Assembly (NCBI GenBank): GCA_016213205.1
Contig: JACRAZ010000041.1
Location: forward strand, 62,001 to 126,000
Reading direction: 5' to 3'
Source: Burkholderiales bacterium
GTDB taxonomy: Bacteria > Pseudomonadota > Gammaproteobacteria > Burkholderiales > Burkholderiaceae_C
DNA length: 64,000 nucleotides
A program made the translations under genes and the position numbers. Under the pieces are notes generated by a model. The model did no database searches and had not been told where the DNA came from. It saw only the letters and a program-made list of their open reading frames with translations. Positions 20,836 through 52,507 of this stretch are shown piece after piece (position 1 is the stretch's first letter; each line of letters opens with the position of its first letter).

Positions 20836-21468
20836 TCAGAACAGGCTCTGGGGGATGATCAGGATGTCACCCGGACGCATCTCGACATTGGCCGAGACAT
20901 CGCCGCGCTTGATCAGGTCCTTCAGGCGCACCGCGTACTGCTTGTTGCCTTCGGCGCTGCGCAGGATGGTGGCGCTGTTGCCGGCGGCGAAGTCGGTCAG
21001 GCCACCCACAGCCACCATCACGTCCAGCAGCGTCATCTTCTGCTTGTACGGCAGGGCCTGGGGCTTGGCAGCCTCGCCGACGACGCGGATCTGCTCGCTG
21101 TACGGGCCGACGAAGCTGGTCACGATGACCGTGACCACCGGGTCGCGCACGTACTTGCCGAGTTGCTTCTCGATTTCGCGCGCGAGCTCGGTGGAGGTCT
21201 TGCCCTGCGCGGTGAGTTCGTCGATCAGCGGGGTGGCCACCTTGCCGTCCGGGCGCACCGGCACTGCCATCGACAGCTCCGGGTTGCGCCAGACGATGAT
21301 GTTCAGGCTGTCGCCCGGCCCGATGAGGTAGCTGTAGGTCTGCGTGTCGGCCACGCTCGGCGCCGGCGGGAAGCCGGGCGAAGCGCAGGCGCCGAGCAGG
21401 GCCACCAGGACCACGGCGCCCAGCCGTGCCGCACGATCCGAAACCAGGGAAATGATGGCGTTCAACAT
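20836..21468 (-). CDS. Polysaccharide export lipoprotein (Wza-like), XrtA system
   Basis: A 210-residue lipoprotein. A signal sequence ends in a lipobox VALLGAC, placing the lipidated cysteine at residue 28. The mature part begins with YSYLIGPGDSLNIIVWRNPE, the classic polysaccharide export (PES) domain. A SLBB-like segment follows (EQIRVVGEAAKPQALPYKQK), and the end is NVEMRPGDILIIPQSLF. It is shorter than Wza (about 380), as usual for exosortase A loci, so the channel is probably completed by the separate barrel protein at 16567-18138. The ATG at 21468 has an AGGA ribosome site directly upstream. It is the first gene of the large leftward operon. Confidence 0.94.
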   Translation of the reverse strand: MLNAIISLVSDRAARLGAVVLVALLGACASPGFPPAPSVADTQTYSYLIGPGDSLNIIVWRNPELSMAVPVRPDGKVATPLIDELTAQGKTSTELAREIEKQLGKYVRDPVVTVIVTSFVGPYSEQIRVVGEAAKPQALPYKQKMTLLDVMVAVGGLTDFAAGNSATILRSAEGNKQYAVRLKDLIKRGDVSANVEMRPGDILIIPQSLF

Positions 21469-21701
21469 GCTTCCTCTCTTTTGGGTGGCTGCTCGGGCGC
21501 CCGAACCGGCGACAGGCTTTGCCGGCCCGGAAGGCGCAATGGACGCGCTCGACGCCGACCGTGGGTCGTGTGCCAATTCGCATCATGACACAGCGTCATG
21601 ACGCCCCGGCAGCAGGGGCGCGCCCCCGCGCTGGCCGAACGGGCAAAAATTAACGCCCGTCGTCCCCGCGGCGGACGCCCTGGCCTGGCGAGCGGCCGGG
21701 T
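21469..21701 (-). promoter_or_regulatory. Upstream region of the large exopolysaccharide operon
   Basis: A 233-base gap between the RND transporter stop and the first gene of the leftward operon, hence the probable promoter region for roughly 20 genes. It contains a palindrome at 21584-21600 (listed separately) and a second inverted repeat, ACGGGC/GCCCGT, at 21639-21660. The latter's ten-base loop is AT-rich (AAAAATTAAC), an unusual patch in this GC-rich DNA that could be a weak terminator of the transporter gene or part of a promoter. A TTGGCAC sequence at 21569-21575 resembles a sigma-54 -24 element but has no matching -12 element. I cannot assign exact -35/-10 boxes. Confidence 0.5.
21584..21600. 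promoter_or_regulatory. 17-bp palindrome, possible operator of the exopolysaccharide operon
   Basis: CATGAC-ACAGC-GTCATG is a perfect 6-bp inverted repeat with a 5-base spacer. It lies 116-132 bases upstream of the export lipoprotein start codon and outside any gene. Size and symmetry suit a dimeric helix-turn-helix regulator. No matching second copy was noticed at other promoters in the window, and the cognate regulator is unknown. Confidence 0.4.
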
Positions 21702-24509
21702 TCAGCCCGCCGGGCCGGTGGCGGCCGCAGGCGGGCCCAGCCGCCGCGCCTCGAGTAGCTGGTGGCCCACCGCGCGGCTCAGGCTCGACGGTGACTGCTT
21801 GCCGAAGTAGGTGCCACCGGGGTACAGCTGCACCACCGGCGCCAGGCGACAGATGCCCAGGCAGCTGGTGCGCGTGAGGCGCCAGTCGTCGTCGGGGTCG
21901 TCGGCCGCCCGGATGGCCTGCATGCGGGTCAGGCGTTCCCACACTTGCTCGCACCCGGCGGCCTGGCATTCGTCGCCGGTGCAGACCAGCACCCGCGACG
22001 GCGCTGTGGTTGCTGCCGACCCCGGGAAGACCGAGGCCGGCCCGCCCGGCATCACCGACGACGGCCCGACGGACAACGGCCCCTGCGACAGAGGCCCGAC
22101 GGAGGCCTGTGACAACCCGCCCGTTGCACGGGAGCCTGCCGCCTGCTCACTGGCCGCACTGGCGGCGCGGGACGCCGAATCGCCGCTGGCGTCCGCCGCC
22201 GCCGCCCGGGCAGCGGCCTGTCGGCGGGCGCTGGCCAGCACCATCAGGGCCGGCATCAACAGCAGTTCACACCACTGGCCGGCAAACAGGCCGACCGCCG
22301 TCATCAGGCCGAAATTGGACGTGGGGATGAAGTCCGAGCCGAACAGCAGCAGGAACTGCGTCACCAGCAGGATCGAGATCGCCATCACGGCGCGGCCAGA
22401 GGATTCGAAGCTGCGTGCCGCGGCAAAGATCGGCGAGATGCCGCGTTCCAGCCGCTCCTTGTAGCCATGGTAGAGGTGGATCGTGTCGTCCACCGTGATG
22501 CCGAGCACGATGCTCGCGATCATCACGGTGGCCATGTTCAGGTAGATGCCGGCGGCCCCCATCAGCACGAACACGAAATACAGCGGCGCGAGGTTGGGCA
22601 CCATGCAGATCGACGCGGCGGCGAACGACCGCCACAGCACCAGCATGAAGAAGAAGATCTGCCCGAACGCGCCAATGAAGCTGCTGGACTGGCCGCTGAC
22701 CAGCAGGTTGACCTGGTCGGCGAACAAGCGCCCCTGCCCACCCACCTCGGCCTGCACCCCGGGAATCGGCTGCGTCTCCAGCCGGCGCTTGATGCGCACG
22801 ATCATGTCGCCGATTTCCTGCGCGCCGTGGATGTGCAGGTTCACCAGCACCCGGCCGCGTTCGAAATCGCGGTTCACCAGCTCGTACAGGTCGGTGCCGT
22901 CGTAGACCAGCAGGTACTGCCGCAGCAGGCGGTCGGTGGGCGGCAGGCCGCGCTGGGCGGCCTGCTCGCCATTCATTGCCCAGTGCATCTCCTCGACCAG
23001 ATCGGCCATCGAGAGGGTGCGGTCCACCTCGGGCTGCTCCTCCAGCCAGCGCTGGAACTCGCGCAGGGCGCGCAGGCGCTCCACGCTCTGCAGGCTGTCG
23101 CGCTCGGCCCCGCGCAGCGAGATCTCGAGCGAGGTCACGCCCATGAACTTGGCTTCGACCAGCCGGGTGTGGCGCACCGCCGGGTGGTTGGGCGAGAAGA
23201 AGGTCAGCAGGTCGGACTCCACCTTCACCTGGCGCACCAGCGGGAAGGTGGCCACCAGCAGCACCAGCATGCCGACGATGACCGACTTCGGGTAGCGCAT
23301 GCTGAACATCGTGATCCGGCCCGCGACCCGACCGAGCACCTTCATCCCCGACTTGCGATGCACCGGCCAGCGGTGCTTGTCCCAGCGCAGCAGCAGCGGT
23401 GGCAGCAGCACGTACACGGTGATGAACACCAGCAGGGTGCCGAATGCCCCCGCGACCCCGAACACCTGCACCGGCGGCACCGGCACGAACACCAGGCTCA
23501 GCAGCCCGGCGGCCGTGGTCAGCACGTTGAACATGCCGGGCTTGAAGGTCTCGTGCAGCGCGCGGTCCAGGCGTTCGGCCCGGCGCAGGCCGGCCTCTTG
23601 CGCGCGCTGGATGCCGGCGTACAGGTGCATCAGCGTGGCCAGCGTGTAGGCCGACAACAGGGTCGGCACGATCGCCGAGGCCATGGTGTAGGGCTGCTGG
23701 AAGGCGGCGATCGCGCCCACCGTGGGCAGCACGACGGTGGACATGCCCAGCGCGCCGATCACCACCGGCCGGATGCGCCCGACCACCCACCACAGCAGGG
23801 CCAGGCCGATGCCCACCGTCAACGGCACGAAGGTGGCCGTGTCGCGCAGGATCGATTCGAGCTGCGCGACGTCCATCGTCACCGGCCCGGCATCGCCCGC
23901 ATAGTGGGAGCGCAGGCCGGCGCGGTTGATGGCCGCTGCCGTGGCGATCTTCACGGCCAGGCGCTGACCGCTGTCGGCCAGCGTCTTGGGCCGCACGGCC
24001 ACGGCCAGGTAGCGGCCATCACGCGAGGCCAGCGTGCCGGGCGCGAAGCGATCTGCCAGCACGCGGCGCTTGATGTCTTCGCTGCTGGCCTTCTTCAGGC
24101 TCTTGAGGTCGATCAGCGGGCTGACGCTGAAGCCGTCGCGCGAGCCGGCGATCTTCTCGACCGACAGCACGCTGGCCACCCGGTCCACCAGCGGGTGGTC
24201 GCGCAGCTCGTTGCTCATGGCCTGCAGGCGGCGCAGGAAGTTCTCGGTGTAGAGGTCGTCGCCCTGGAACAGGACGGTCAGCACCTCGTCGCTGGGGAAG
24301 TCCTTGCGCAGGGCATCACGCACCGCCATGGCCGGCGCATCAGCGGGGTAGTAGACCTCGGGCGAGTTGTTGAAGCTCAGCCGCAGCATCAACGCGCCGC
24401 CCACCCCGTGCAGCAGCAGCACGATGGCCAACGCCAGCGGCCAGGCGAACATCGGCATCGCCATGCCGTAGCGGCGGCCGAAACATCGCGTCAGCAGCTG
24501 CCGCCACAT
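21702..24509 (-). CDS. RND/MMPL-family transporter with C-terminal NuoE-like [2Fe-2S] thioredoxin-fold domain
   Basis: A 935-residue fusion. Residues 1 to about 790 form an RND-superfamily (MMPL/sterol-sensing-like) transporter: two halves, each with a large periplasmic loop followed by a cluster of membrane helices. Motifs include FFSPNHPAVRHTRLVEAKF before the second loop and SIVLGITVDDTIHLYHGYKE in the second helix bundle, where the Asp pair suits proton relay. A low-complexity Ser/Gly/Pro/Ala linker (about 795-838) leads to a thioredoxin-like ferredoxin domain, starting RVLVCTGDEC. Its Cys843-x4-Cys848 and Cys883-x3-Cys887 (TSCLGICRLAPVV) match the cluster ligands of NuoE. The transporter should move a hydrophobic substrate with the barrel protein and LolA-like protein encoded upstream. 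The iron-sulfur appendage is unusual; see findings. Confidence 0.9.
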   Translation of the reverse strand: MWRQLLTRCFGRRYGMAMPMFAWPLALAIVLLLHGVGGALMLRLSFNNSPEVYYPADAPAMAVRDALRKDFPSDEVLTVLFQGDDLYTENFLRRLQAMSNELRDHPLVDRVASVLSVEKIAGSRDGFSVSPLIDLKSLKKASSEDIKRRVLADRFAPGTLASRDGRYLAVAVRPKTLADSGQRLAVKIATAAAINRAGLRSHYAGDAGPVTMDVAQLESILRDTATFVPLTVGIGLALLWWVVGRIRPVVIGALGMSTVVLPTVGAIAAFQQPYTMASAIVPTLLSAYTLATLMHLYAGIQRAQEAGLRRAERLDRALHETFKPGMFNVLTTAAGLLSLVFVPVPPVQVFGVAGAFGTLLVFITVYVLLPPLLLRWDKHRWPVHRKSGMKVLGRVAGRITMFSMRYPKSVIVGMLVLLVATFPLVRQVKVESDLLTFFSPNHPAVRHTRLVEAKFMGVTSLEISLRGAERDSLQSVERLRALREFQRWLEEQPEVDRTLSMADLVEEMHWAMNGEQAAQRGLPPTDRLLRQYLLVYDGTDLYELVNRDFERGRVLVNLHIHGAQEIGDMIVRIKRRLETQPIPGVQAEVGGQGRLFADQVNLLVSGQSSSFIGAFGQIFFFMLVLWRSFAAASICMVPNLAPLYFVFVLMGAAGIYLNMATVMIASIVLGITVDDTIHLYHGYKERLERGISPIFAAARSFESSGRAVMAISILLVTQFLLLFGSDFIPTSNFGLMTAVGLFAGQWCELLLMPALMVLASARRQAAARAAAADASGDSASRAASAASEQAAGSRATGGLSQASVGPLSQGPLSVGPSSVMPGGPASVFPGSAATTAPSRVLVCTGDECQAAGCEQVWERLTRMQAIRAADDPDDDWRLTRTSCLGICRLAPVVQLYPGGTYFGKQSPSSLSRAVGHQLLEARRLGPPAAATGPAG

Positions 24510-24522: not shown

Positions 24523-25911
24523 TCAGAAACGGGTCTTCACGCCCACCGCGACCATGCCGTGCTCGCGATGGAATCCCCCCAGGGTGCGGTCTTCGCCGCG
24601 GAAGTGATGCGCGGTGATGAAGAACTCGTGCGGCTCCCATCCCACGTAGGACAGGCGTGGCGAGAGGTAGACGTCATGCACGTTCAGCCCGCTGGCAAAC
24701 CGCAGGCCGAGCTTCCAGCGCCCCTGGCCGAAGCTGGTCTGCACTTCGCCGTTGACCCCGGTGTAGCGCTTGAGTTCGAGCACCGGGCCGTCAACCCTCA
24801 GCTGGCGCGTCAGCAGCTGGAGATTCACCCGGGTGTCCTTGCCGCCAGGGAAGAACTCGACCGCGCCGATCCAGTCCCAGCTGCGCCCGGTGGCCATGCT
24901 GCCGTCCAGGCGCGTGGCGGGCACGTCGCTGGCCGTGCCGAGCTCGGAGCGCAGCGTCACGCCGCCCGCCACGAACTCCATGTCGGCGCCGACGAACTTG
25001 TTGTAGGGCTGGATGCGGGTGAGCGTCATGCGCAGCGGGTCGAGCCGGTAGTAGGGCAAGGGCTGGCGCGTGTGCGCCAGCGTCAGCCCCAGGTCGACCG
25101 GTGCGCCGGCGCGTGTCACGCGCACGGCGGCCCCACCCGACCCATCCAGGTCCTCGCGCAAGCTGGCAAAGCGGGCAATCGCGCCGATCGCGGGCGTCTG
25201 CGGCAGACCGAACACGCGGCCACCGCGCCGGTCGATCGGGCTCCAGACACTTTGCAGGTCAGGCAGCAGCGCCGGCTTGAAGCCGGGCATCACGATGGCA
25301 TCGAGCTTGAGCTCCTCGAAGCTCTGCTCCCAGCGCAGCATCGGCTGGGGCAAGCGGCGCTCGGCAAGGTCGTCGAGCACGAAGCGGCTCAGGTCGACGC
25401 GGCTCACGCGGTCGATCGTGGGCACGGCATCCACACGGCCCCACAGCACGGTTTGCGCGCCCAGCGTCAGCCGGGTGTCGCCACGGCGGTAGCGCACGAA
25501 CGTGTCGGTGAGCTCGGCGCCGCTGTCGTCGTAGTGGCCCGGCCCGTCGCGCTGGGTCACGGCCTCCAGCCGCGCGCCGGCCCGGAACTCCCATTCGCGC
25601 GCGGGTTGCCAGGCGACGAAGGGGCTGACCCGTGCGGTGGCGGTGCTGCGTGCCTCGGGTGCGTCGACCAGCCGCCCGGCCTCGACCAGCACGCCGTCGA
25701 GGCCCCAGCGCAGCACTGGCTTGAAGCCTCGGCCGGCACTGCGGTTGGCGCCCGCGCCGGCGGCGCTGCCCTCGTCGGCGGCGGCCAGCTGCAGCGGCGG
25801 CTCCGCCGCGTGCACCGGTGCCAGCCACAACGCCAGCAGCAACAGGCCCAGGGGCCTCAACATGGGGTGTCCGGAGGCCTTGGTGTTCTTGGTCATCGGC
25901 GTGCGTGTCAT
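24523..25911 (-). CDS. DUF1302-like outer-membrane beta-barrel protein
   Basis: A 462-residue protein with a hydrophobic signal (LRPLGLLLLALWLAPVHA, cleaved before Ala-Glu-Pro) after a 16-residue basic extension. The mature part has many amphipathic strands, the segment TLGAQTVLWGRVDAVPTIDR, and a C-terminal VGVKTRF ending in phenylalanine, as in outer-membrane barrels. It resembles DUF1302-type proteins that co-occur with RND/MMPL transporters. The ATG at 25911 overlaps the stop of the LolA-like gene (ATGA); later ATGs at 25896 and 25863 are possible and would shorten the signal region. Predicted role: outer-membrane component for the substrate of the RND protein, which starts 13 bases downstream. 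Confidence 0.75.
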   Translation of the reverse strand: MTRTPMTKNTKASGHPMLRPLGLLLLALWLAPVHAAEPPLQLAAADEGSAAGAGANRSAGRGFKPVLRWGLDGVLVEAGRLVDAPEARSTATARVSPFVAWQPAREWEFRAGARLEAVTQRDGPGHYDDSGAELTDTFVRYRRGDTRLTLGAQTVLWGRVDAVPTIDRVSRVDLSRFVLDDLAERRLPQPMLRWEQSFEELKLDAIVMPGFKPALLPDLQSVWSPIDRRGGRVFGLPQTPAIGAIARFASLREDLDGSGGAAVRVTRAGAPVDLGLTLAHTRQPLPYYRLDPLRMTLTRIQPYNKFVGADMEFVAGGVTLRSELGTASDVPATRLDGSMATGRSWDWIGAVEFFPGGKDTRVNLQLLTRQLRVDGPVLELKRYTGVNGEVQTSFGQGRWKLGLRFASGLNVHDVYLSPRLSYVGWEPHEFFITAHHFRGEDRTLGGFHREHGMVAVGVKTRF

Positions 25912-26720
25912 GGTCGGTACTCCGACTCTAGCCCTTGGTCGGAGAGTGCCTGTTGCGTGAACAGCTTGGTGGGCAACTTCCGGTCGTAGATCGCCTGCTG
26001 GACCACCAGGCGGGTTTCGTGGCCGCTGGCCAGGTCGGACAGCCGGCTGTCGGTGACAGTCCAGAAGCCCTGCACCTGCTTCCTGGCCCCCAGCAGCCAG
26101 CGTTTGCTGGGGCTGCGGTCGTCCCGCTCGAAGTAGTCCACGCGGTGCACCAGTGCCGTGCTGGGGTCGATCCAGCTCAGGCGCTTGCGGTAGACAGAGT
26201 CGTCCGCGTCGATCGGCGTGCTTTCCACCACCTCGCAGGCCACGCCGTTGAGCGTCTCCTTGCCGACGAGGCGGTGCCGGTCGGCCGCGGGCTTGCGCTC
26301 GCGCAGGTCTTCGTAATAGAAGTCGGAGCCGACGAACCGCCCGCCCTTGCGATCGCCCGCGATGCGACGCACCCGGTCCAGCTCGGGCAGGTAGAGCCAT
26401 TGCTCGTTGCTGCCGTCGGCCTTGTCGATGCTGAGCAGGCCGGTGCCCGCGATGTCCTTGGGCTCGAGGAAGCGGGCCAGGTTCCAGGCCTCGCCGCGAC
26501 CACGCTGCAGCCGGTAGGTCACCAGCTCACGCACCCGGGGCGCTCGGCCCTTCTCGGCAAGCTCCATCCGCGTGAGCAAGGTGAGGTCGCGGCCGATGGG
26601 CCTGTCGCTCACGCGCTGCATCAGGGACAGCGCGTCGTCGGCATGCGCGGCATCCACCCTGCCGAGGCCCAGCGCAAGCATTGCGGCCGAGGCACACAGT
26701 CGACGCCTTTGCATCTGCAT
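25908..26720 (-). CDS. Periplasmic LolA-like (outer membrane lipoprotein-sorting) protein
   Basis: A 270-residue exported protein. The start MQMQRRRLCASAAMLALG ends in an Ala-His-Ala cleavage region near residue 28. The mature protein has MELAEKGRAPRVRELVTYRL, a stretch with FLEPKDIAGTGLLSID and QWLYLPELDRVRRIAG, and GSDFYYEDLRERKP, all typical of the LolA-like family that accompanies RND/MMPL transporters. The fold has a hydrophobic half-barrel that can carry a lipid across the periplasm. I chose ATG 26720, with a GGAG ribosome site 9 bases upstream; ATG 26714 is the alternative. It is the first gene of the leftward arm of the divergent cassette. Confidence 0.85.
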   Translation of the reverse strand: MQMQRRRLCASAAMLALGLGRVDAAHADDALSLMQRVSDRPIGRDLTLLTRMELAEKGRAPRVRELVTYRLQRGRGEAWNLARFLEPKDIAGTGLLSIDKADGSNEQWLYLPELDRVRRIAGDRKGGRFVGSDFYYEDLRERKPAADRHRLVGKETLNGVACEVVESTPIDADDSVYRKRLSWIDPSTALVHRVDYFERDDRSPSKRWLLGARKQVQGFWTVTDSRLSDLASGHETRLVVQQAIYDRKLPTKLFTQQALSDQGLESEYRP

Positions 26721-27079
26721 CTGGTTTGTCTCCGAAGCTTCCCGGTGCAAGGTCACGACACTTTGAAGCCTATGTCTGGCCACGCGGCCGGTTCTGGGCA
26801 TGGTTCAAGGATAACCGCTGGCCATGGAGCCCATCGCCGATGAAGCCCCAGTGCAGGATTCTTCCGCCGTGCAGCGCCCAGGCCCTGCTCTAAGATGCGC
26901 GGGAGTTTACAGACTGACCCTTCCGGGAGACGCCCAGCCATGCGAACCTGCAGCAACCGACCGCACCAGGGGGTGTCCGAGGTGGTACCCAAGGCGCGGA
27001 CGGAGGCTTCGGGCCCGGCAGCGCCCGCCGCGGCCGGTGGCCGCGTGATGCACGGTGCCCAGCCGATGCGGGTGGCAGC
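26721..27079. promoter_or_regulatory. Divergent intergenic region of the RND/flavoprotein cassette
   Basis: A 359-base region between oppositely directed operons, so it should hold promoters for both arms. A TAAGAT hexamer at 26891-26896 could be a -10 box for the rightward arm, but no convincing -35 is at the proper distance (CGTGCA at 17 bases). No sigma-54 site and no strong terminator were seen. A short reading frame with an upstream purine-rich site covers its right end (listed separately). Confidence 0.4.
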
Positions 27080-27083
27080 ATGA
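26940..27083 (+). CDS. Possible small leader ORF upstream of the flavoprotein gene
   Basis: Reads as 47 residues (MRTCSNRPHQGVSEVV and onward, Ala/Gly-rich end). An ATG at 26895 in the same frame would give 62 residues. A GGGAGA sequence lies about 10 bases before the 26940 ATG. Its TGA overlaps the ATG of the flavoprotein gene (ATGA), the same junction style used by true genes here, which would allow translational coupling. There is no recognisable domain, signal peptide or membrane segment. In such GC-rich DNA a 47-codon frame can arise by chance, so this is weakly supported. Confidence 0.2.
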   Translation: MRTCSNRPHQGVSEVVPKARTEASGPAAPAAAGGRVMHGAQPMRVAA

Positions 27084-28720
27084 GCGAACCCCGGCCTCCC
27101 GTCACCTTGTCGAGCGAACTGCTCGAGGCCCTGCGCGCCATCCTGGGCAGCGATGGTGTGCTTGCCGATCCCGACGCCGTTGAGCAGGTCACCCGCACCT
27201 GCCTGCCCGACCGGCAGTTGCCCTCAGCCGTGGTCTACCCGAAGAACGCCGCCGAGGTACAGGCCGTCGTGCGGGCCGCGGCCCGGGCAGGCGTGCCCGT
27301 GTGGCCGGTGAGCACCGGCCGGAACTGGGGCTATGGTGAACGCAACGCATGCTACGAAGCGGGCATCACGATGCTGCTCGAGCGCATGGGCCGCATCTGG
27401 CATGTCGACGAGCAACTGGGTTACGCGGTCGTGGAACCCGGGGTCAGCTACAAGCAACTCAACGACCACCTGAAGCGGAGCGGCTCCCGCCTGTGGGCCG
27501 ATTGCGCCGGCAGCACGCAGCACGCCAGCGTGCTGGGCAACGCGCTGGACAAAGGCCGCGGCCTGACGCCGATGGCCGACCACTATGGCGCCCTGTGCGG
27601 CATGGATGTGGTGCTGGCCGATGGCACGCTGCTCGAGACGGGCGGTGGCCCGGCCGGCCACAACACCGTGCGCCACACCTACAAGTGGGGTGTGGGCCCC
27701 TACCTCGACGGCCTGTTCGTGCAGTCCAACCTGGGCATCGTGGTCAAGGCGGGCGTGTGGCTGATGCCCGCGCCGGAGGTGTTCGATTTCGCCGCCTTCG
27801 AGTACAAGGCCTCGCCCGACCGGCTGGGCGCCTTCATCGACGACCTGCGGGAACTGGTGATGTCGCGCGCCATCCGCGCGCACCCGCACCTGGCCAACGA
27901 CTTCGCGATGATGTGCATCCTGTCGCAGTACCCGCACGAGATGCTCGAAGGTCGCCGCCACCTGACGGACGACGCCGCGGCGCGCTGGCGCGTGCAGCAT
28001 GGGGTGGCGCGCTGGACCTTCGGTTGCGGCCTGTACGGCAGCCGCGAGGAGGTGCGCTACCAGAAGCGGATGATCCGCAAGGTGCTGGGCCGCTACGGGA
28101 TGGTGCAGTTCATCGGCGCCGCGATCCGCGACGACTGGTTCGGCAGGCTGGTGCGGTACGTGGCACCGATCGCCAACCGGCTGCTGGGCAAATCGCCCGA
28201 GTTCACCGATGTGATGGTGCCGGCCATCAACCTGTTCCGCGGCATCCCGACTGACGAGTTCGTTCGCCAGGCCTACTTCAAGTCGCACAAGGAAAAGCCC
28301 AGCACCGACATCGACCCCGCGCGCGACGGGTGTGGTTTCGTCTGGATCGGCCCGGTGGTGCCCTTCACGTCCGAGCACGTGATGAAGGCACTGGCGCTGA
28401 GCCGCCTGGTGTTCGAGAAGTACGAGTTCGACTTCTTCGTCGAGGTGATCGTCGAGAGCCCTCGCTCGGTGATCGTGCTGGTGGGCGTGTTCTACGACCA
28501 GAAGGACGCCGTCGACAGTGCGCGTGCGCGCGACTGGTATCACGAGGCGCGTGACACCTACATCGCTGCGGGCTACCCGCCCTACCGCGCCACCACGATG
28601 AGCATGCCCGATGCGATGGACACCAACCTGCCGGCCAAGGCGCTGCTGGCCCAGCTGAAGGCGGCCCTGGACCCGCAGAACCTGATCGCGCCCGGGCGCT
28701 ACGGCACGCCGCCCCGATAG
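27080..28720 (+). CDS. FAD-linked oxidase, vanillyl-alcohol oxidase / p-cresol methylhydroxylase type
   Basis: A 546-residue flavoprotein with the PCMH-type FAD-binding domain: YPKNAAEVQAVVRAAARAGV, then PVSTGRNWGYG (residues 76-86), the pyrophosphate-binding loop diagnostic of the VAO/PCMH subgroup. VVEPGVSYKQLNDHL and the glycine-rich SNLGIVVKAGVWLMPAP follow. The C-terminal substrate domain ends LDPQNLIAPGRYG, as in VAO-type oxidases. Relatives oxidise para-substituted phenols such as vanillyl alcohol, eugenol or p-cresol. Whether the flavin is covalently bound cannot be decided by eye. There is no signal peptide, so it is cytoplasmic. It opens a three-gene operon with the reductase and acyl-CoA ligase; substrate unknown. 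Confidence 0.82.
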   Translation: MSEPRPPVTLSSELLEALRAILGSDGVLADPDAVEQVTRTCLPDRQLPSAVVYPKNAAEVQAVVRAAARAGVPVWPVSTGRNWGYGERNACYEAGITMLLERMGRIWHVDEQLGYAVVEPGVSYKQLNDHLKRSGSRLWADCAGSTQHASVLGNALDKGRGLTPMADHYGALCGMDVVLADGTLLETGGGPAGHNTVRHTYKWGVGPYLDGLFVQSNLGIVVKAGVWLMPAPEVFDFAAFEYKASPDRLGAFIDDLRELVMSRAIRAHPHLANDFAMMCILSQYPHEMLEGRRHLTDDAAARWRVQHGVARWTFGCGLYGSREEVRYQKRMIRKVLGRYGMVQFIGAAIRDDWFGRLVRYVAPIANRLLGKSPEFTDVMVPAINLFRGIPTDEFVRQAYFKSHKEKPSTDIDPARDGCGFVWIGPVVPFTSEHVMKALALSRLVFEKYEFDFFVEVIVESPRSVIVLVGVFYDQKDAVDSARARDWYHEARDTYIAAGYPPYRATTMSMPDAMDTNLPAKALLAQLKAALDPQNLIAPGRYGTPPR

Positions 28721-28729: not shown

Positions 28730-29875
28730 ATGGCCAAGCATGTCTTCCTGACCGGCGCGACCGGCACCATCGGCAGCGCACTGGTGCCGCGCCTGCTGGC
28801 CCCCGCGGACACCCAGGTGACGGTGCTGGTGAGGGCGCGTGATGCCGCAGACCTGAAGCAGCGGATGTCGGCGATGCATGACGCCTGGGGGCTGTCACCC
28901 GACCATCCGGCACTGGCCCGCCTGCATGCGCTGCAGGGCGACATCTCGCTGCCGCGCCTCGGGCTCACCGAGCTGGCGTTCGACCAACTCGCGCACGAGG
29001 CCACCCACCTGATCCACTGCGCCGCCAGCGTGAAGCTGAACATGTCGCTCGAACAGGCGCGCGCCACCGCGGTCGCGCCGACCCAGACCATGCTCGACCT
29101 GGCAGAGCACGCGCAACGCGCCGGCAACCTGTGCAAGGTGGACCTGGTGAGCACCGTGGGCGTGTGGGGCTGCGCGCCGGGCCACATGCCCGAACGCGCG
29201 GACCTCGGCGAGCGCGAGTTCCACAACACCTACGAAGCGACCAAGGCCGAGGCCGAGCGCGTGGTCTGGCAGCGTGGTGCGAACCTGCCCATCACCGTCC
29301 ATCGGCCCAGCATGGTGATCGGCGAGCGCGGCAGTGGACGGGTGCTGCACTTCCAGGTCTTCTACCACCTGTGCGAGTTTCTTTCCGGCGTGCGAACCTT
29401 CGGCGTGATGCCCGACCTGGGTGACACGCAGCTGGACACCATTCCGGTGGACTGGGTGGCCGACGCGATCTGCTGGTCCAGCGACCAGCCGGCCATGTCG
29501 GGCGGCATCCTCCACCTGTGTTCCGGCCCGGAGCGCGCCATTGCATTGACGCGGCTGCAGCAGCGTGTACGGCAGGCATGGCAGGCCCACGGGCGGCCGG
29601 TGCCGCCCCTCCGGCATGTGAGCCGCCGCCTGCTGGAGCGGGCGGTGCCGGTGATCGGCTGGTTCGCGGGTGACAAGACACGCCGGGCCCTGCGTGGCCT
29701 GCCACCCATCCTGGCCTATCTGTCCGAGCGCCAGGGGTTTGCCAACCCGCAGACGGCGCGCACCCTGGCGGCCGCCGGCTTGCCGGTGCCGGAAGTCGAT
29801 GACTACCTGGATGCCGTGCTCGGCTACTACCTTTCGCATCGCACCCCCGGACAACGGCCGGGTGGCCCATCATGA
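28730..29875 (+). CDS. Thioester-reductase-like SDR (fatty acyl-CoA reductase family, NAD-binding type 4)
   Basis: A 381-residue extended SDR. It begins HVFLTGATGTIGSALVPRLL with the GxxGxxG nucleotide motif at residues 9-15. VTVLVRARDAADLKQRM, LIHCAASVKLNMS and the active-site NTYEATKAEAERVV (Tyr-x-x-x-Lys) follow, and then VHRPSMVIGERGSGRV. This arrangement is that of thioester reductase and fatty acyl reductase domains, which reduce acyl-CoA or carrier-bound acids to aldehydes or alcohols. It lies 9 bases after the flavoprotein and overlaps the acyl-CoA ligase by ATGA, so ligase and reductase could act in sequence on one acid. Isomerase or dehydrogenase activity cannot be excluded. Confidence 0.82.
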   Translation: MAKHVFLTGATGTIGSALVPRLLAPADTQVTVLVRARDAADLKQRMSAMHDAWGLSPDHPALARLHALQGDISLPRLGLTELAFDQLAHEATHLIHCAASVKLNMSLEQARATAVAPTQTMLDLAEHAQRAGNLCKVDLVSTVGVWGCAPGHMPERADLGEREFHNTYEATKAEAERVVWQRGANLPITVHRPSMVIGERGSGRVLHFQVFYHLCEFLSGVRTFGVMPDLGDTQLDTIPVDWVADAICWSSDQPAMSGGILHLCSGPERAIALTRLQQRVRQAWQAHGRPVPPLRHVSRRLLERAVPVIGWFAGDKTRRALRGLPPILAYLSERQGFANPQTARTLAAAGLPVPEVDDYLDAVLGYYLSHRTPGQRPGGPS

Positions 29876-31674
29876 GCACCACGCGCGGGATGTCGACCAC
29901 GGCCGTGCCGCCTCCGCCCAACACGGTGCGGGCGATGCTGGCCGAGCGTGCCGCGGCAACACCGATGGCGCTGGCGTTCCAAGCAGAGGCCACACCCGGT
30001 GGCGGCTGGCATCCGGTGCGTTGGCAGGACTTCGCCGATCGGGTGCAGCGGCTGGCCCGCGGGCTGGCCGCCGCAGGCTTGCGCCACGGCGACCGCCTGG
30101 CGTTGATCGCCCCCAACTCGCTCGAGTGGGAGTTGCTGCAACATGCGGCACTCTCGCTGGGCGCGGTGGTGGTCGGCCTGGACGCGCATGACTTGCCGGA
30201 ACGCCTGGCCACCATGTGCGGCATTGCCGATGTCGTGGCCTACGCCACGACAAACCCGGCCCTGCTGGCACGGGTCGACCCCGAGCGCCTGGCCAGCGCC
30301 CGTTTCCTGCTGGACCTGGGCACTGCCGTCGACGGCGCCCTTCCGGCCACGCCGCCGCGCTTCACATGGGCCTCGATGGACGAGCTCGCCACCACGGCGT
30401 CACCGCCGACGTCGTCGCCCGCCGCGGACGACATCGCGACCATCATCTTCACCTCCGGCACCACCGGGACCCCAAAGGGCATCCCCTTCAGCCATCGGCA
30501 GGTGTGCCTGACCACAGAAGCGATCTGCGAGGTGTTCAGCTTCGTTCCGCCGGACGGCCGCCTGCTCTGTTGGCTGCCGCTGTCAAACCTGCTACAGCGC
30601 ATGATCAACTTTGCCGCGCTGCGGCGTGGCGCCACGACCTACGTGCTGGGCGATCCAAGGCGCGTGATGGAGGTGGTGGCTGGCGTCGAGCCTGACGTGT
30701 TCGTCGGCGTGCCCCGGTTCTTCGAGAAGTTGCACGAGGGCATCGGCGCCGGCATCGCGGCGCAGCCCGCGCTGCCACGCCTGATTGCAGGCTGGGCCTG
30801 GGCCACCGGCCGCCGGGCCAGCGCACTCCGGCTGGAAGGCCGTGCACTGCCGCCCTGGCTGGCACTGGCGCATGCCGTGGCGGATCGGTGGGTGCTTGCA
30901 CGCATGCGCCGCATGATGGGCCGGCGATTGCGCTGCATGGTCACGGGATCGGCGCCAACACCACCGCACCTGCTGCAGGAATTCCATGCATTGGGCTGGT
31001 TGGTGCTCGAGGCCTACGGCTTGAGCGAGAACGTGCTGCCGATGGCGATGAACCGGCTGGACGACTTCCGCTTCGGCACTGTCGGTCGGCCCCTGCCCGG
31101 CAACGACATCGTGGTGGGCGAGGACGGCGCCATCAAGGTGCGGGGCCCCGGTGTCTTCACAGGCTATCTGGGGGACAACACGAATCCGCTCGATGCACAG
31201 GGCTACTACACCACGGGCGACCTGGGGCGGTTCGACGCCGACGGCTACCTTTCGCTGGCAGGCCGATCGAACGAGCTGATCAAGACCTCCACCGGCCGGC
31301 GGATTTCACCGCTGGGCGCCGAGGCGCAGTTGCGTCGCGTGGCCGGCATCGACCAGGTCGTGGTCGTCGGTGCCGGCCGCAAATGCCTGGTGGCGCTGTG
31401 CACCCTGCAGCCGGGCCTGCAAGACAGCGTCGACGGTCGAACCCGCCTGGTGAACGCGCTACGCGAGCGCCTGGCCGAACTGGGCGAGCATGAACGGCCG
31501 AGCGGGATCGCGCTTCTGTCACGCCCGTTCACGATCGAGGACGGTGAGCTCACGACCAACCTCAAGCTGCGACGCTCGGCGATCGAGGCACGGCATGCTG
31601 GGCTGATCGAGGAGTTGTACCGGGCCGTCGATCAGGCTGGTACGACCGACCCTCGCAACGCACCTGTCATGTGA
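29872..31674 (+). CDS. Long-chain acyl-CoA synthetase family AMP-dependent ligase
   Basis: A 600-residue ANL-superfamily enzyme: acid plus ATP gives acyl-AMP, then acyl-CoA (or acyl-ACP). Visible motifs are the P-loop FTSGTTGTPKGIPFSHRQV, the A5 motif LEAYGLSENVLPMAM, YYTTGDLGRFDADGYLSLAGR with the hinge region, and the C-terminal LTTNLKLRRSAIE. This last resembles the LTPTLKLKR ending of long-chain (FadD15-type) synthetases and supplies the late lysine. This separates it from the benzoate-CoA ligase type at 49546-51174. It overlaps the reductase by 4 bases and is followed by a strong terminator at 31724-31750. The acid activated is not known. Confidence 0.9.
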   Translation: MSTTRGMSTTAVPPPPNTVRAMLAERAAATPMALAFQAEATPGGGWHPVRWQDFADRVQRLARGLAAAGLRHGDRLALIAPNSLEWELLQHAALSLGAVVVGLDAHDLPERLATMCGIADVVAYATTNPALLARVDPERLASARFLLDLGTAVDGALPATPPRFTWASMDELATTASPPTSSPAADDIATIIFTSGTTGTPKGIPFSHRQVCLTTEAICEVFSFVPPDGRLLCWLPLSNLLQRMINFAALRRGATTYVLGDPRRVMEVVAGVEPDVFVGVPRFFEKLHEGIGAGIAAQPALPRLIAGWAWATGRRASALRLEGRALPPWLALAHAVADRWVLARMRRMMGRRLRCMVTGSAPTPPHLLQEFHALGWLVLEAYGLSENVLPMAMNRLDDFRFGTVGRPLPGNDIVVGEDGAIKVRGPGVFTGYLGDNTNPLDAQGYYTTGDLGRFDADGYLSLAGRSNELIKTSTGRRISPLGAEAQLRRVAGIDQVVVVGAGRKCLVALCTLQPGLQDSVDGRTRLVNALRERLAELGEHERPSGIALLSRPFTIEDGELTTNLKLRRSAIEARHAGLIEELYRAVDQAGTTDPRNAPVM

Positions 31675-32617: not shown

Positions 32618-32704
32618 ATGCATTCCTTCAAGAAACGATGTTTAAGGTATTCGGCGGCCGGTCCGCTTGTCGAACACGATGTTCTGGCGCCGTATCTACA
32701 GGTA

Positions 32705-32955: not shown

Positions 32956-35727
32956 CTACAGCCCCTTGAGCAGGGCGACGACCTCGTCCTGTGCCGAGAA
33001 CTTGTCGCCCAGCAGAGCGAGCTTGTCGAGCTCGGCCTTTGCGGCGGCCTTGTCGCCAGCGCGGATCAGCAGCTTGGCGAAGCTCAACCGCAGCGAGGAG
33101 GCTTCCGGTGCGAGCGCAAGCGCCTTGCGCTGCAGTTCGAGCGCCCGCGCGTACTGCTTGTCTTCGGCCAGCGCCGTGGCCAGGGTGTCCATGATGTCGG
33201 CCTGATTGGGCAGCAGTTGGTTGGCCCGCTCGGCAAACGGCAGCGCTCCCGGCTTTCCTTGCTGCAGCAGCATCGACGCGATGTTGTTGTTGGCGGCCGC
33301 GTTGTCCGGCTTCAGTTCCAGCGTCTGGCGGAATCGCGCTTCAGCACCCGCCAGATCCTTGCGCTCCAGAGCCATCAGCCCCAGGTGGAACACGAAATCG
33401 GCATCCGTGGCCTGCTTGCGGAGCCACCCTTCAGCAAACCGGTCGGCTTCTGCTTGACGGCCTGCCTTGACCAGCACGGCATGAAGCCGAATGGCCACAT
33501 CCGATGCAGCCCCTCGGTCCAGGGCAGCCCTGAACGCCGAGGCCGTCGGTTCCCACGCCCGCTGCCGGGCGTGGATCTCCCCTTCGAGCACGTAGCCGAC
33601 GGGTTCGTCCGGCCGCTGCTTCTGCACGGCGCGAGCGACCCTGATCGCATCGTCCGGCCGTTTGCGCAGCATCGCGATGCGCATCTGGGCCTGCTGTGCT
33701 GCCAGGTGCTTGGGGTCGGCGTCGAGCACCCGCTGCAGGCTTTGAGAGGCCGCCAGGTAGTCGCGCTTCGCGATGTAGGCATCGGCCAGTCGCAGTTGCG
33801 GACCGGGCGCCGCAGGATGCGCCGCCACGATCTTGCGGAAGCTGTTGATCGCCTGCTCGGTGTCGCCGGCAAAGAGCTGGGCGCGACCCAGCGCATCGAG
33901 CATGTCCAGGTTGTCCGGCACCGCCGCCATGCCTTCCTGGGCGGCAACCAGGGCCGCCTTGGCGTCACGCTGGGCAAGATGGTGATCGATCAGGGCCAGC
34001 CGGGGTCCGATTTCGGCCGGATTGGCCTTGACCGCGTCAGACAACAGCTTGGCCACGTCCTCGGGCTTGGCGCCCGTGCGCAGTCGCAGATCAGCCACCG
34101 CCAGCATGGCGGTCACGTTGCGCGGCTCGCGGGCCAGGGCGTCCTCGTAGCGCTTCAGCGCCTGGGGCAGCTTCTTCTCGATCACATCCAGCGTGGCCAG
34201 TGCCACAACACCGGGAAAGTAGGTCGGGTCCAGCGCATGGCCCTTTTCGTATGCCGCCCGGGCACCTTCGGCGTTGCGCTGCATCAGCAGGATCCGGCCG
34301 CGCAACAGGTACGGCAAGGGCTTGTCGGCCATCTTTCCCTGCAGCCGATCGACCGCCCGCAGCGCATCGGCCAGCTCGTTGCGCCTGAGCCGCATGCTGA
34401 TGATCGCCAGATCGGCGAACGAACTCGGGTCCGACGCGGCCACCGCCTCGAGGCGGGAAAAGCCCACCGTGGGATTGCCCTTCGCGACCTCGGTCAGCGC
34501 CAGCGCGGTGAGCAGCTTCGGGTCACCCGGGCTGGCCTTGTCGGCCTGGACGAAATACACCTCGGAGCTGGCCAGGTCACCACTTTGCAGGTGCGCTTGC
34601 GCAGCCAGCGCCAACACCGCGGACGACGGCTTGGGTTGCGCCAGCAGCGGTTGCAGCGCGGCGACGGCCTTCTCGGGTTGGCCCAGCCGCAGGTGGGCGT
34701 CGGCCAGCAACTGGCGCGCCAGCGGTTGCGCCGGTGACACCTGCACCGCCTTGTTCAGGTGACTCACCGCCTGCATCAGGGCACCGGCCTGCAGCTCGAT
34801 CGCGCCTGCGAGTTGCAGCACCGATACGTTCTGCGGCGACAGGCGGAGCAGTTGCTGGGCGCCCTCTCGCGCGCGCTTGATGTCGCCGTCGGCCAGGGCC
34901 AGCTGAGCTTCGTAGAGCTGCGTGATCGGGTGCTTGGGCCAGGCCTTCTTCAGCAATGCCAGCTGGGCCTTGAACCCGGCGACGTCCTTGCGTTGCTGCA
35001 GAACGCCGATGAGGGCGGTGTGTGCGCCCAGATCGGCCGGATCGATGGCCAGGATGGCTCGAAACGTCTGCATGGCCGCATCGGTATCGCTCTGGCCCAG
35101 CCACTGCAGTTCACCCTTCAATTGCAGCGCGTCGATTCGTGTCGGGGCATCCGCCACCACCTGGTTGACCAGTGCGAGGGCATCGCCCACGTTGCCCGCA
35201 CCCGCCACCAGACGCGCTTTCATCAGCCGGGCCCGCACGCTCTTGGGTGCCAGCCGCAATGCCGCATCCACCTCGGCGGCGCCCTGATCAAGCTTGTTCT
35301 GGGCGATGTATGCCACGCCGACGACGGTCTTGAGTTCGGCGGCTGCCTCGGGATCGGGCAATGCGAGCTGACCGAACCGCTCGGTCACGGCCTTGACCTG
35401 GCCGACGGACGCCAGGCCCTCTGCCAGCAGGGGCACCACGAGGTTGTCGGCCTGTCCCAGCGTGCGGGCGCGTTCGAGTTCCACCACCGCGCCGGCCGGG
35501 TCGCCGGAGCGCAGCAGGGCCTGGCCCATCATCAGCCGCGCCGGGCCGGACTGGCCATTCTTCTGGAGCGCTGCCTTCAGCTGGACCACCGCCGCGCTGG
35601 TCTCTCCCTTGTCGAGGTAGGTCTTGGCCGAGGACAGCAGCGCCTCCTCGCTCTGGCCGCCGCACGCGGCCAGCACAAAGAGCACCGCCCAGGCCCAGGC
35701 CTGGCCGATTCGCAGCAACGGACTCAC
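32956..35727 (-). CDS. prsT: PrsT-type TPR lipoprotein, XrtA/PEP-CTERM system
   Basis: A 923-residue protein. A signal sequence ends in the lipobox VLAAC (Cys22), so it is a lipoprotein, probably periplasmic or outer-membrane facing. From about residue 30 to the end it is made of tandem tetratricopeptide repeats (for example SSAKTYLDKGETSAAVVQLK, and later repeats each with the Gly/Ala/Tyr/Ala/Pro pattern), over 20 in total by eye. This size and plan match the PrsT family encoded with PrsK and PrsR in exosortase A loci. It probably scaffolds the secretion or sorting machinery. The start is GTG at 35727, with an AGGAGA ribosome site 6 bases upstream; it lies 15 bases after the prsR stop. Confidence 0.93.
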   Translation of the reverse strand: MSPLLRIGQAWAWAVLFVLAACGGQSEEALLSSAKTYLDKGETSAAVVQLKAALQKNGQSGPARLMMGQALLRSGDPAGAVVELERARTLGQADNLVVPLLAEGLASVGQVKAVTERFGQLALPDPEAAAELKTVVGVAYIAQNKLDQGAAEVDAALRLAPKSVRARLMKARLVAGAGNVGDALALVNQVVADAPTRIDALQLKGELQWLGQSDTDAAMQTFRAILAIDPADLGAHTALIGVLQQRKDVAGFKAQLALLKKAWPKHPITQLYEAQLALADGDIKRAREGAQQLLRLSPQNVSVLQLAGAIELQAGALMQAVSHLNKAVQVSPAQPLARQLLADAHLRLGQPEKAVAALQPLLAQPKPSSAVLALAAQAHLQSGDLASSEVYFVQADKASPGDPKLLTALALTEVAKGNPTVGFSRLEAVAASDPSSFADLAIISMRLRRNELADALRAVDRLQGKMADKPLPYLLRGRILLMQRNAEGARAAYEKGHALDPTYFPGVVALATLDVIEKKLPQALKRYEDALAREPRNVTAMLAVADLRLRTGAKPEDVAKLLSDAVKANPAEIGPRLALIDHHLAQRDAKAALVAAQEGMAAVPDNLDMLDALGRAQLFAGDTEQAINSFRKIVAAHPAAPGPQLRLADAYIAKRDYLAASQSLQRVLDADPKHLAAQQAQMRIAMLRKRPDDAIRVARAVQKQRPDEPVGYVLEGEIHARQRAWEPTASAFRAALDRGAASDVAIRLHAVLVKAGRQAEADRFAEGWLRKQATDADFVFHLGLMALERKDLAGAEARFRQTLELKPDNAAANNNIASMLLQQGKPGALPFAERANQLLPNQADIMDTLATALAEDKQYARALELQRKALALAPEASSLRLSFAKLLIRAGDKAAAKAELDKLALLGDKFSAQDEVVALLKGL

Positions 35728-35742: not shown

Positions 35743-37125
35743 TCAGAGGTCGGCGTGCTGTTTGATCGCCAACCGATTCATCAGATCGTAAAGGGTCGGA
35801 CGACTCACGCCCAGCAATTCCGAGGCCTTGGCGATATTGCCGTTGCTTCTGCTGAGCGCCATCAAGACGGCATGCCGTTCGGCGCTTTCACGCACCGTGC
35901 GCAGATCGAGGTCGTTGAGTTCCTGTTTGCCACCGGCAGCGGCCGGCGAAGGCAGGCCGAGGTCGGCCGCCAGGATCCGGCCGCCGTCGCACATGATGGA
36001 CGCCCGCTTCACGGCATTGAGCAACTCGCGCACATTGCCGGGCCAACCGTGTTGCTCGATCGCCTGCAGCGCGTCATCGGAGAAGGTCATGGACCCGCGC
36101 CGCTGGTCCTGGGCAAACCGCTGCAGGAAGGCGTGCGCGAGCAGCACCGCGTCTCCCTGGCGCGCGCGCAGTGCCGGGATCTCCACCACGATCTCGGCCA
36201 GGCGGTAGTACAGGTCTTCGCGGAAGCGCCCGGCGATGATCTGCGCCTTCAGGTCCTGGTGGGTGGCGCAGACCACGCGCACATCGACCGGGATTTCCTG
36301 GCGCCCGCCCAGGCGTTCGATCTTGCGCTCCTGCAGGAAGCGCAGCAGCTTGGCCTGCAGCGGATGCGGCAGATCGCCGATCTCGTCGAGCATCAAGGTG
36401 CCGCCGTTGGCGGTCTCGATCTTGCCGGGTGTTGTCTTGGAGGCGCCGGTGAACGCGCCGCGCTCGTAGCCGAAGAGCTCGCTCTCGAGCAGCGTTTCGG
36501 GGATGGCCGCGCAGTTGATCGCGACGAAGCGGCCTTGGCGCTTGGAGGCCTGGTGCAGCCCCTGTGCCAGCACCTCCTTGCCAGTGCCGCTTTCGCCCAG
36601 CAACAGCACGGTGGCATCGCTGGCGGCCACGCGCTCGACCAGGCGGCACACCCGCAGCATCTCGGGATCGCGTGTGACCAGGCCGGACAGCGCGTCGGGC
36701 TGGTGCAGCGCCTGCAGCCGCCGGTTCTCGGCCTGCAGTTCGGCCAGGCGGTAGGCGCGATCGATCGTCAGGCCCAGCAGTTCCGGTTCGAACGGCTTGG
36801 CGAAGAAGTCGTAGGCGCCCAGCGCCACGGCCCGCAGCGCATTGGCCTGGTCGTTCTGGCCGGTGAGCACGATGACCTTGACGTTCGGATCGATGTCCAG
36901 CAACTGCTGCAGCAGGGCAAAACCTTCGGAGGTGGCGTCGGGGTCGGGCGGCAGCCCCAGGTCCATGGTGACCACGGCCGGCTGGTAGCGCCGGAACTGC
37001 ACCAGGGCACTCTCGCGGTCGGCCGCGGTGATGGATTCGAAGCGGTCGAGCGACCACTTGATCTGCTTCTGCAGCGCGAGGTCATCCTCGACGATCAACA
37101 GCGGTGGCGGGCTGGCGGAATTCAT
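35743..37125 (-). CDS. prsR: PrsR-type sigma-54-dependent response regulator
   Basis: A 460-residue NtrC-family activator. The receiver domain (1-125) has the acidic pair in IVEDD, phosphoacceptor Asp55 in [10 protein letters not shown] and the conserved Lys110 in FFAKPFEP. The AAA+ domain has Walker A GESGTGKE (177-184), the sigma-54 contact loop GAFTGA (223-228) and [13 protein letters not shown] for Walker B. A Fis-type helix-turn-helix ends the protein ([20 protein letters not shown]). It should activate sigma-54 promoters once phosphorylated by PrsK, whose stop codon overlaps this ATG by 4 bases. The sigma-54 promoter of the adjacent PEP-CTERM gene is the best target in the window. Confidence 0.95.
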
Positions 37126-44670: not shown

Positions 44671-44827
44671 GGAGCACTTTCGCGATGCCGGGCCGGCGGC
44701 CCACCGTTGAGTCGGTTGGCCGGCCTGCAGCCCCACAGCAGACTACGGCGCGGGCCGCGCAGTCTTGAGCGTATACCCGAGGCCTGTCGCAACCGGATAC
44801 ACATCTTCCGACCCGCGCTGACCCAGG

Positions 44828-45355
44828 TCAACCGGGCCGCTGGACCAGGCGCACCCGGCGTTGGTGCCCGGACGGCTGCCCGATGTGGCCCAGCGGCAGC
44901 TCGGTGCTGGCCTTGATGCGGTTGAGCACGATGCTCGAGCGCACGCTCACCACGCCCGGCAGCCGGGTGAGCCGGCGCAGCACCGATTCCGACAGCTCGT
45001 TCAGCGATGCGGCGACGATCTGCAGCAGGTAGTCGGCCTCGCCGGCGATGGCATAACAGTCCAGCACCTCGGGAAATTCGCCGATCGCGCGCTCGAAGGC
45101 CGCACCTTCCTCGCCCCCATGGCGCGCCAGCGTGACATGGGTGAACGAGCGCACCGCCAGCGACAGCAGGGTCGGGTCCAGCAGCGCCACGTAGGCGCGG
45201 ATCACGCCCAGCGATTCCAGCCGCTGGGTGCGCCGGCTCACCTGCGAGGGCGACAGGCCCAGCCGCTCGCCCACCACCTGGTTGGTGGCATGGCTGTCAC
45301 GCTGCAACTGCACCAGCAGTGCGATGTCCAGCGGGTCGAGCAGCAGGTCATCCAT
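44828..45355 (-). CDS. Lrp/AsnC family transcriptional regulator
   Basis: A 175-residue regulator. Residues 8-60 form the N-terminal helix-turn-helix (LDIALLVQLQRDSHATNQVV, then LGLSPSQVSRRTQRLESLGV). Residues 70-150 are the RAM/AsnC effector domain, with the typical EVLDCYAIAGEADYLLQIVA and LTRLPGVVSVRSSIVLNRIK. It diverges from hpd with a 141-base gap, so it probably controls that gene in response to tyrosine, phenylalanine or a breakdown product, an inference from position. A GCAC-GGTTT-GTGC dyad lies between them. Confidence 0.92.
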   Translation of the reverse strand: MDDLLLDPLDIALLVQLQRDSHATNQVVGERLGLSPSQVSRRTQRLESLGVIRAYVALLDPTLLSLAVRSFTHVTLARHGGEEGAAFERAIGEFPEVLDCYAIAGEADYLLQIVAASLNELSESVLRRLTRLPGVVSVRSSIVLNRIKASTELPLGHIGQPSGHQRRVRLVQRPG

Positions 45356-52446: not shown

Positions 52447-52479
52447 TCGCTGGGCCACCGGCAACACGCAAGAAACTGC

Positions 52480-52507
52480 TTGACGTTCATTGAATGTGCA
52501 CTATCAT
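52480..52507 (+). promoter_or_regulatory. Sigma-70-type promoter of boxCBA
   Basis: TTGACG (52480-52485), a 16-base spacer and TATCAT (52502-52507) agree with the -35 and -10 consensus at five of six positions each. It ends 53 bases before the boxC GTG. Operator-like copy 3 (52500-52510) covers the -10 hexamer. Confidence 0.75.

Follow-up and report, generated by a model that had tools for sequence, protein, structure and literature searches.

Among described transport systems, the closest to the one considered here is AmeABCD of Castellaniella defragrans, which the accessible text of PMC6394551 presents as an HAE3-type resistance-nodulation-division (RND) exporter of monoterpenes and as an exporter of hydrophobic compounds, the deletion of which lowers monoterpene tolerance. 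The same text states that HpnN, an RND pump of broadly the same type, functions with no partner protein in the periplasm or outer membrane (PMC6394551). A third group, the MmpL pumps, includes MmpL5 entries that, judging by their titles, show a bound cytoplasmic AcpM. The proton gradient powers RND pumps, which, to our knowledge, are not known to carry redox cofactors. Here we describe an RND pump from a Burkholderiales bacterium that runs into a thioredoxin-like [2Fe-2S] ferredoxin domain, encoded on the minus strand at 21702..24509 of a 64,000-nucleotide stretch of contig JACRAZ010000041.1 (hereafter, the window; all features are on the minus strand unless stated). The fusion is a conserved, lineage-specific form of a known transporter type joined to a known domain, and a literature search, with most subscription papers beyond its reach, found no RND transporter with a thioredoxin-like ferredoxin domain. 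We favor, with a probability of roughly 0.4, the reading that this protein exports N-acyl amino acid lipids or products derived from them and is equipped with a lineage-specific regulatory or docking iron-sulfur module.

The gene reads from 24509 to 21702 as one open frame of 935 amino acids with zero internal stops, and both MMPL and PF01257 of Pfam score above their cut-offs in its product. The coordinates given in a preliminary description of this DNA, which named no strand, are correct. Residues ~1-770 (22200..24509) constitute the transporter, in which MMPL (PF03176) covers two stretches with 88.5 bits against a cut-off of 20.5 when the whole protein is scanned. In the best AlphaFold2 model (mean predicted local distance difference test score, pLDDT, of 79), residues ~14-770 match MmpL, HpnN and AcrB-type structures in Foldseek; MmpL4 and MmpL5 come out best, at a sequence identity of ~16%, with HpnN lower. 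The model has an RND fold with two periplasmic loops and 12 transmembrane helices, the latter counted by eye on the model and a hydropathy plot; the description of this part as an RND transporter is borne out. The top NCBIfam match, the HAE3 profile TIGR00921, reaches 135.6 bits, under its own cut-off of 351.9, and the HAE3 label is therefore approximate. An identity with HpnN was rejected, since TIGR03480 (65.7 vs. 751.85 bits) and NF052374 (22.6 vs. 1100) both remain far under cut-off; the HpnN entries 5khn and 6wu0 are among the structural matches of the RND part, but HpnN, unlike the window pump, has no iron-sulfur domain. By eye, transmembrane helix 10 (TM10, ~22.5 kb) keeps a V-D-D-T-I-H (or I-D-D) motif, and TM4 (~23.6-23.7 kb) is without an acidic residue, whether or not the orthologue is fused, a pattern that possibly represents a one-sided proton relay. 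The transporter is joined to the tail, as had been claimed, by a low-complexity linker, residues ~771-836 (22002..22199), which is rich in Ala, Ser and Gly and predicted to be disordered (pLDDT <50 at 775-835).

The tail, residues ~837-922 (21744..22001), belongs to the ferredoxin family to which it had been assigned. 2Fe-2S_thioredx (PF01257) scores 36.4 bits (cut-off, 24.8) over residues 838-911 of the whole protein and 41.3 bits on the tail scanned alone; up to an E-value of 0.01, it is the sole Pfam family matched in all seven fused tails that we found. The four predicted cluster ligands, Cys843 (codon 21981..21983), Cys848 (21966..21968), Cys883 (21861..21863) and Cys887 (21849..21851), are at the positions first reported, with the Leu-Ala-Pro-Val-Val stretch after the fourth; each is invariant in 7/7 tails, and so is the pattern Cys-x4-Cys-x34-Cys-x3-Cys. 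An alignment of the seven tails has only 11 invariant columns, the four cysteines among them; the window tail has an additional cysteine, Cys853. Tail models show the order beta-alpha-beta-beta-alpha. Against sequences in the PDB, the window tail matches HydB-type hydrogenase N-terminal domains first (7q4v_B, E 8.5e-8) and then Thermus NuoE (2fug_2), with whose cysteines all four of its own align, and for a profile of the seven tails NuoE proper ranks behind both the N-terminal domains of HydB and the ferredoxin of Aquifex. The original epithet NuoE-like is thus right as to superfamily and cysteine spacing, but the solved HydB N-terminal domains and Aquifex ferredoxin are closer. NuoE proper was rejected as an identity (TIGR01958, 26.8 bits vs. 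a cut-off of 142.4; no NuoF among the neighbors scanned), and several NuoE/HoxE-type NCBIfam profiles match the tail, all under cut-off. The x4 spacing of the tail agrees with the NuoE and HydB alignments; for the thioredoxin-like class as such, the accessible text of PMC11138216 quotes a spacing of x10-12. PF01257 and the four cysteines, and perhaps the predicted fold, are common to the tail and to the known thioredoxin-like ferredoxins (HydB N-terminal, Aquifex Fd, Azotobacter FeSI, NuoE), which in the PDB matches occur free or in hydrogenases, dehydrogenases and complex I, and in none of these matches within an RND protein. From these features, the tail probably binds a [2Fe-2S] cluster.

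The fusion was followed in a first search for relatives covering 60 genomes and in a later scan of named genomes, which yielded 11 loci. The closest orthologue, in Aquabacterium terrae (genome G016, locus L031), is 75% identical across residues 1-922 and carries the same fusion in one frame. Fused genes were found in six of the 11 named loci, namely A. terrae, Rubrivivax albus (L034), two Methylibium metagenome-assembled genomes (MAGs; L038 and L040), a Rubrivivax MAG (L039) and Azohydromonas sediminis (L041), which brings the total to seven with the window. The five unfused loci are L032 and L033, from Thiobacillus MAGs, and L035, L036 and L037 (genomes G003, G018 and G020), whose proteins of 780-781 amino acids lack the tail. 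Since seven distinct genomes hold the fusion, including one of the same genus with a single open frame and five further ones, the assembly or frameshift error that had been feared at the outset is ruled out, and the RND-ferredoxin fusion is confirmed. The worry that homologues might lack the four cysteines proved right in one respect only: many homologues are without the whole domain, but none has the domain without a cysteine. In a family-wide sample, an orthologue at E 1e-150 was present in 8/399 genomes, six of these eight being fused and all six belonging to loci already known. Matches were found in 16/399 genomes at the order level (E 1e-60) and in 12/369 at the class level (E 1e-100), and among those whose C-terminus was read, only the window's is fused. 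Relatives of the tail, stand-alone or NuoE-type, occur in 296/299 family genomes (E 1e-4); the domain type is common in the family and the fusion is rare.

Selection on the three parts of the protein was compared through Nei-Gojobori ratios of nonsynonymous to synonymous changes (pN/pS), taken as bare ratios without a significance test and given in the order RND part, linker, ferredoxin domain. The values were 0.34, 0.97 and 0.49 for the window and its sister genome (L031), 0.44, 0.79 and 0.44 for L040 and L041, 0.46, 0.97 and 0.76 for L034 and L039, and 0.09, 0.14 and 0.17 for L040 and L038, a pair with few changes. The linker thus drifts, and the ferredoxin domain is for the most part under constraint, plainly so in two pairs and weakly in one, with the fourth undecided. 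These figures bear on the idea that the domain is a functionless, decaying passenger of an old gene fusion, an idea that draws on its patchy presence, one apparent loss and the divergent tail of L034. However, four named genera have retained the domain without change in its four cysteines, and the pN/pS of the domain lies below that of the linker in three of the four pairs (it is not lower in L040/L038, where changes are few), and we regard decay as improbable.

The history of the fusion was read from a tree of 22 RND parts, tail columns excluded, rooted on two very distant rows and without L038, a fragment that holds the tail. On this tree the fusion requires two changes of state, for which the best interpretation is a single gain at the root of a nine-row group, six of whose rows are fused and three unfused, and a single loss ahead of L035-L037. 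The nine rows sit on a branch with a support of 84/97, and a single origin is therefore likely, not certain. As to the source of the domain, the non-transporter sequence closest to the tail, among those tested, is the ferredoxin portion of a CbiX-like two-domain protein in genome G673 (L099:10504-11388), which scores 111 and 110 bits against the two Methylibium tails and at most 61 bits against any other non-transporter domain. That protein has PF01257 like the tail, but joined to the soluble chelatase-like PF01903 and not to an RND pump, and it has a relative at 66% identity in G814; the short tail tree allows descent in either direction between the tails and the G673 protein. The G673 two-domain gene is near a gene for an ABC-3 (metal-type) permease, and similar chelatase-ferredoxin proteins were noticed by eye in L074, L076, L081, L085 and L093.

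Two genes upstream of the transporter on the same strand complete a trio, in the order LolA-like, DUF1302, RND. The first encodes a LolA-like periplasmic carrier resembling AmeB (25908..26801; PF17131, 182.7 bits; DUF1329, 32.9 vs. 23.1), and the second a DUF1302 protein, probably of the outer membrane and AmeA-like (24523..26400; PF06980, 48 bits vs. 23.2), whose true start, by eye, is well within its open reading frame, near 25.9 kb. Besides the window, all named loci but the fragment L038 (10 of 11) have the trio, as do 6/6 further, more distant loci; in a set of 24 genomes picked for holding an RND orthologue, all three genes were seen in 15. AmeABCD likewise combines an RND pump of HAE3 type with a DUF1302 protein of the outer membrane and a periplasmic protein of the LolA superfamily/DUF1329, all encoded together. 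It consists of four parts, however, including a COG4447 protein, and the window trio matches three; no AmeC-like and no COG4447-like gene was noticed with the trio in the window, the COG4447 profile itself not having been searched for. AmeD (787 amino acids), compared with the window pump by description only, is described without a ferredoxin domain, and AmeABCD lies in another locus and presumably has another substrate. A ThiF/E1-like gene (PRK08223 type) is found near the trio in L032-L037 and in the gene sets of L141-L144.

A lead to the substrate comes from two genes for FeeM-type N-acyl amino acid synthases in the window, at 41082..42377 (PF21926, 154.9 bits vs. 27) and at 43345..44736 (PF21926, 157 bits), the latter with a PilZ domain (29.7 vs. 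22.5). In four distant genomes, synthase and trio are co-directional within 3 kb: G330 (L141) and G170 (L142) have, on one strand, LolA-like, DUF1302, RND, synthase and ThiF-like genes, and G130 (L143) and G085 (L144) have synthase, LolA-like, DUF1302, RND and ThiF-like genes, again on one strand. In A. sediminis (L041), a FeeM synthase is the convergent neighbor of the fused gene. In G409 and G382, no synthase was present in the 11 kb fetched around the trio, and one was located on another contig. Overall, 20 of the 24 genomes that hold an RND orthologue have a FeeM synthase, 7/7 fused ones included, vs. 15/50 family controls (Fisher p ~2e-5, uncorrected for kinship; 20 of the 50 controls were shown to be negative for the RND orthologue and the rest presumed so), and in 10/24 it is on the same contig as the RND gene and at most 20 kb from it. 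PilZ-linked synthases of the FeeM kind made N-acyltyrosines in Escherichia coli, and a genetic link of FeeM-type synthases to exosortase loci is in print, as cited in the accessible parts of both reports (PMC4897644, PMC7293339). An RND/LolA/DUF1302 exporter in an XrtA-FeeM setting did not turn up in our literature search. Beside the window synthases are genes for a 4-hydroxyphenylpyruvate dioxygenase-like protein (45497-46603) and an Lrp/AsnC regulator (44828-45355), so that a tyrosine catabolism gene adjoins a possible N-acyltyrosine pathway, and a trypsin-like gene (52% identical) is near the synthase in L041 too.

The window trio sits in an XrtA/PEP-CTERM polysaccharide locus, as defined by equivalogs above cut-off for the TPR protein PrsT (32956..35727; TIGR02917, 712 bits vs. 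312), the PEP-CTERM-box response regulator PrsR (35743..37125; TIGR02915, 715 bits vs. 503) and the histidine kinase PrsK (37122..39227; TIGR02916, 809 bits vs. 300). The exopolysaccharide export protein of the system is encoded at 20836..21576 (TIGR03027, 240 bits vs. 180), and the chain-length protein, tyrosine kinase, ATPase, outer-membrane protein, deacetylase and glycosyltransferase of the locus are also above NCBIfam cut-offs. PrsT was found in 22 of the 24 genomes with an RND orthologue vs. 40 of 150 family genomes (36/146 after removal of four positives known to hold the orthologue), and in 14/24 it is on the same contig as the RND gene, at most 20 kb away. A PEP-CTERM protein close to the flocculation-associated PepA is encoded at 31769-32623 of the window (71.7 bits vs. 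a cut-off of 80); in L034, a PepA above cut-off adjoins the trio.

Considering the trio together with its setting, we propose that the pump is the inner-membrane part of an at least three-part, AmeABCD-like lipid exporter, working with the LolA-like carrier and the DUF1302 outer-membrane protein, and that its likely cargo would be long-chain N-acyl amino acids or their products, made beside the XrtA/PEP-CTERM polysaccharide locus. The pump of one lineage, represented by Aquabacterium, Rubrivivax, Methylibium and Azohydromonas records, would have gained, probably once, a C-terminal ferredoxin attached through a flexible linker. An RND protein with 12 helices has both termini in the cytoplasm, and the ferredoxin domain would therefore be positioned at the cytoplasmic mouth of the pump. 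There it would probably bind [2Fe-2S] and act as a regulatory or docking module, which may tie export to the redox or iron state or bring a cytoplasmic partner to the pump; redox coupling or sensing by the domain is possible. Of the roles that can be envisaged for the domain, we place regulation or docking first, ahead of a tethered electron carrier and a purely structural function. The accessible text of PMC11138216 describes the function of the thioredoxin-like ferredoxin class as elusive, with regulation proposed, and its members as working as dimers.

Several observations weigh against this proposal. The domain is absent from 22 unfused orthologues and close homologues whose C-termini were read, and the sub-lineage L035-L037 seems to have lost it; transport can therefore proceed without the domain. 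Of the seven tails, that of L034 is the most divergent, and it is in the L034/L039 pair (pN/pS 0.76) that constraint on the ferredoxin domain is weak. With respect to the substrate, four of the 24 genomes with an RND orthologue gave no FeeM match, and in the fused genomes the synthase lies outside the trio operon, at a distance of ~17-19 kb in the window and ~16 kb in A. terrae; the remaining fused genomes, L041 excepted, have it on a different contig or at a great distance. Further, the 50 controls were not matched for phylogeny, and three of them, from the window's own genus and without the RND orthologue, are all synthase-positive. Both fused Methylibium genomes are without PrsT. Finally, cluster binding and a redox response of export are themselves proposals made from sequence.

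The dimeric state reported for the ferredoxin class (accessible text of PMC11138216) would also fit a domain that is a structural, dimerising or docking module, its redox chemistry being irrelevant to transport. Such a role would agree with the predicted disorder of the linker and with the presence, among the top structural matches, of MmpL5-AcpM complexes, by their entry titles a cytoplasmic protein on an MmpL pump; AcpM, however, is a separate acyl carrier protein, whereas the window pump carries a fused ferredoxin. The four exact ligand cysteines, kept with their spacing in 7/7 tails, exceed the needs of a bare scaffold, and we consider this explanation unlikely.

An explanation that we hold to be unlikely to the same degree is that the domain acts as a tethered electron carrier, relaying electrons from a reductase in the cytoplasm to an enzyme associated with the membrane (desaturase, oxygenase or reductase), by which the lipid would be tailored just before export. 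All three [2Fe-2S] ferredoxin classes take part in electron transport, according to the accessible text of PMC11138216, and the solved structures nearest to the tail belong to hydrogenase and complex I subunits that transfer electrons. Redox tailoring genes are present in the arm that diverges from the trio, and an FAD monooxygenase-like gene is 5 kb away in L041. However, no redox enzyme is common to the fused loci inspected, the genes tested around L040, L041 and L034 include no common redox partner, and the flavoprotein of the divergent arm has no close orthologue in 4/7 fused genomes.

The divergent arm, on the plus strand, encodes this flavoprotein, of the p-cresol methylhydroxylase/vanillyl-alcohol oxidase family (27080..28720; 1wve, E 8.4e-70), followed by a short-chain dehydrogenase/thioester-reductase-like protein (28730..29875; PF07993; TIGR01746 below cut-off) and an AMP-forming acyl ligase (29872..31674; PF00501, 207 bits). 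Enzymes of the flavoprotein's family act on para-substituted phenols, and we would guess that a phenol derived from an N-acyltyrosine would suit it. The preliminary description envisaged electron exchange between this enzyme and the ferredoxin domain, which would be in keeping with their divergent arrangement in the window and L031, and in the genome of L039 a 78% orthologue begins at a contig end, L039 itself starting with the next genes of the arm. Nevertheless, a close orthologue (78-100% identity) is present in only 3/7 fused genomes (G000, G016 and that of L039), while the remaining four have homologues at 27-35% only, and high-potential electrons from such flavoenzymes would, on general grounds, not readily reduce a low-potential [2Fe-2S] ferredoxin. 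This part of the earlier proposal is therefore very improbable. The 12 unfused genomes searched hold no close orthologue of the flavoprotein, the best match being 33% over nearly its whole length (G123).

If an iron-sulfur domain does work at the cytoplasmic end of the pump, lipid export would respond to iron, oxygen or redox state within one protein, and the apparent natural loss in L035-L037 offers a ready comparison for its role. A bolder version of the exporter reading, which we consider doubtful, is that this would be the first iron-sulfur-controlled RND exporter, whose release of N-acyl amino acid surfactants or signals of the biofilm locus would be confined to one redox or iron state, as read by a built-in [2Fe-2S] domain that came perhaps from a chelatase-ferredoxin protein. 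The ferredoxin aside, the trio next to FeeM-type synthases is a concrete candidate for the exit of N-acyl amino acids from the cell, a step left open for the cluster studied in PMC7293339, as far as its accessible text goes. More general than the fusion itself is the result that links the trio to the XrtA locus and to N-acyl amino acid synthases.

Two minor observations concern other genes. At 49546-57069, the window contains genes for an AMP ligase and for enoyl-CoA hydratase-like, PaaA/PaaC-like and ferredoxin-reductase-like proteins, which we take to resemble the aerobic benzoyl-CoA (box) pathway. In L007 (643-3819), inspection by eye suggests that a 1058-amino-acid RND protein has a LolA-like/outer-membrane-lipoprotein-sorting domain at its end and would thus be another fusion, of a pump with a carrier.

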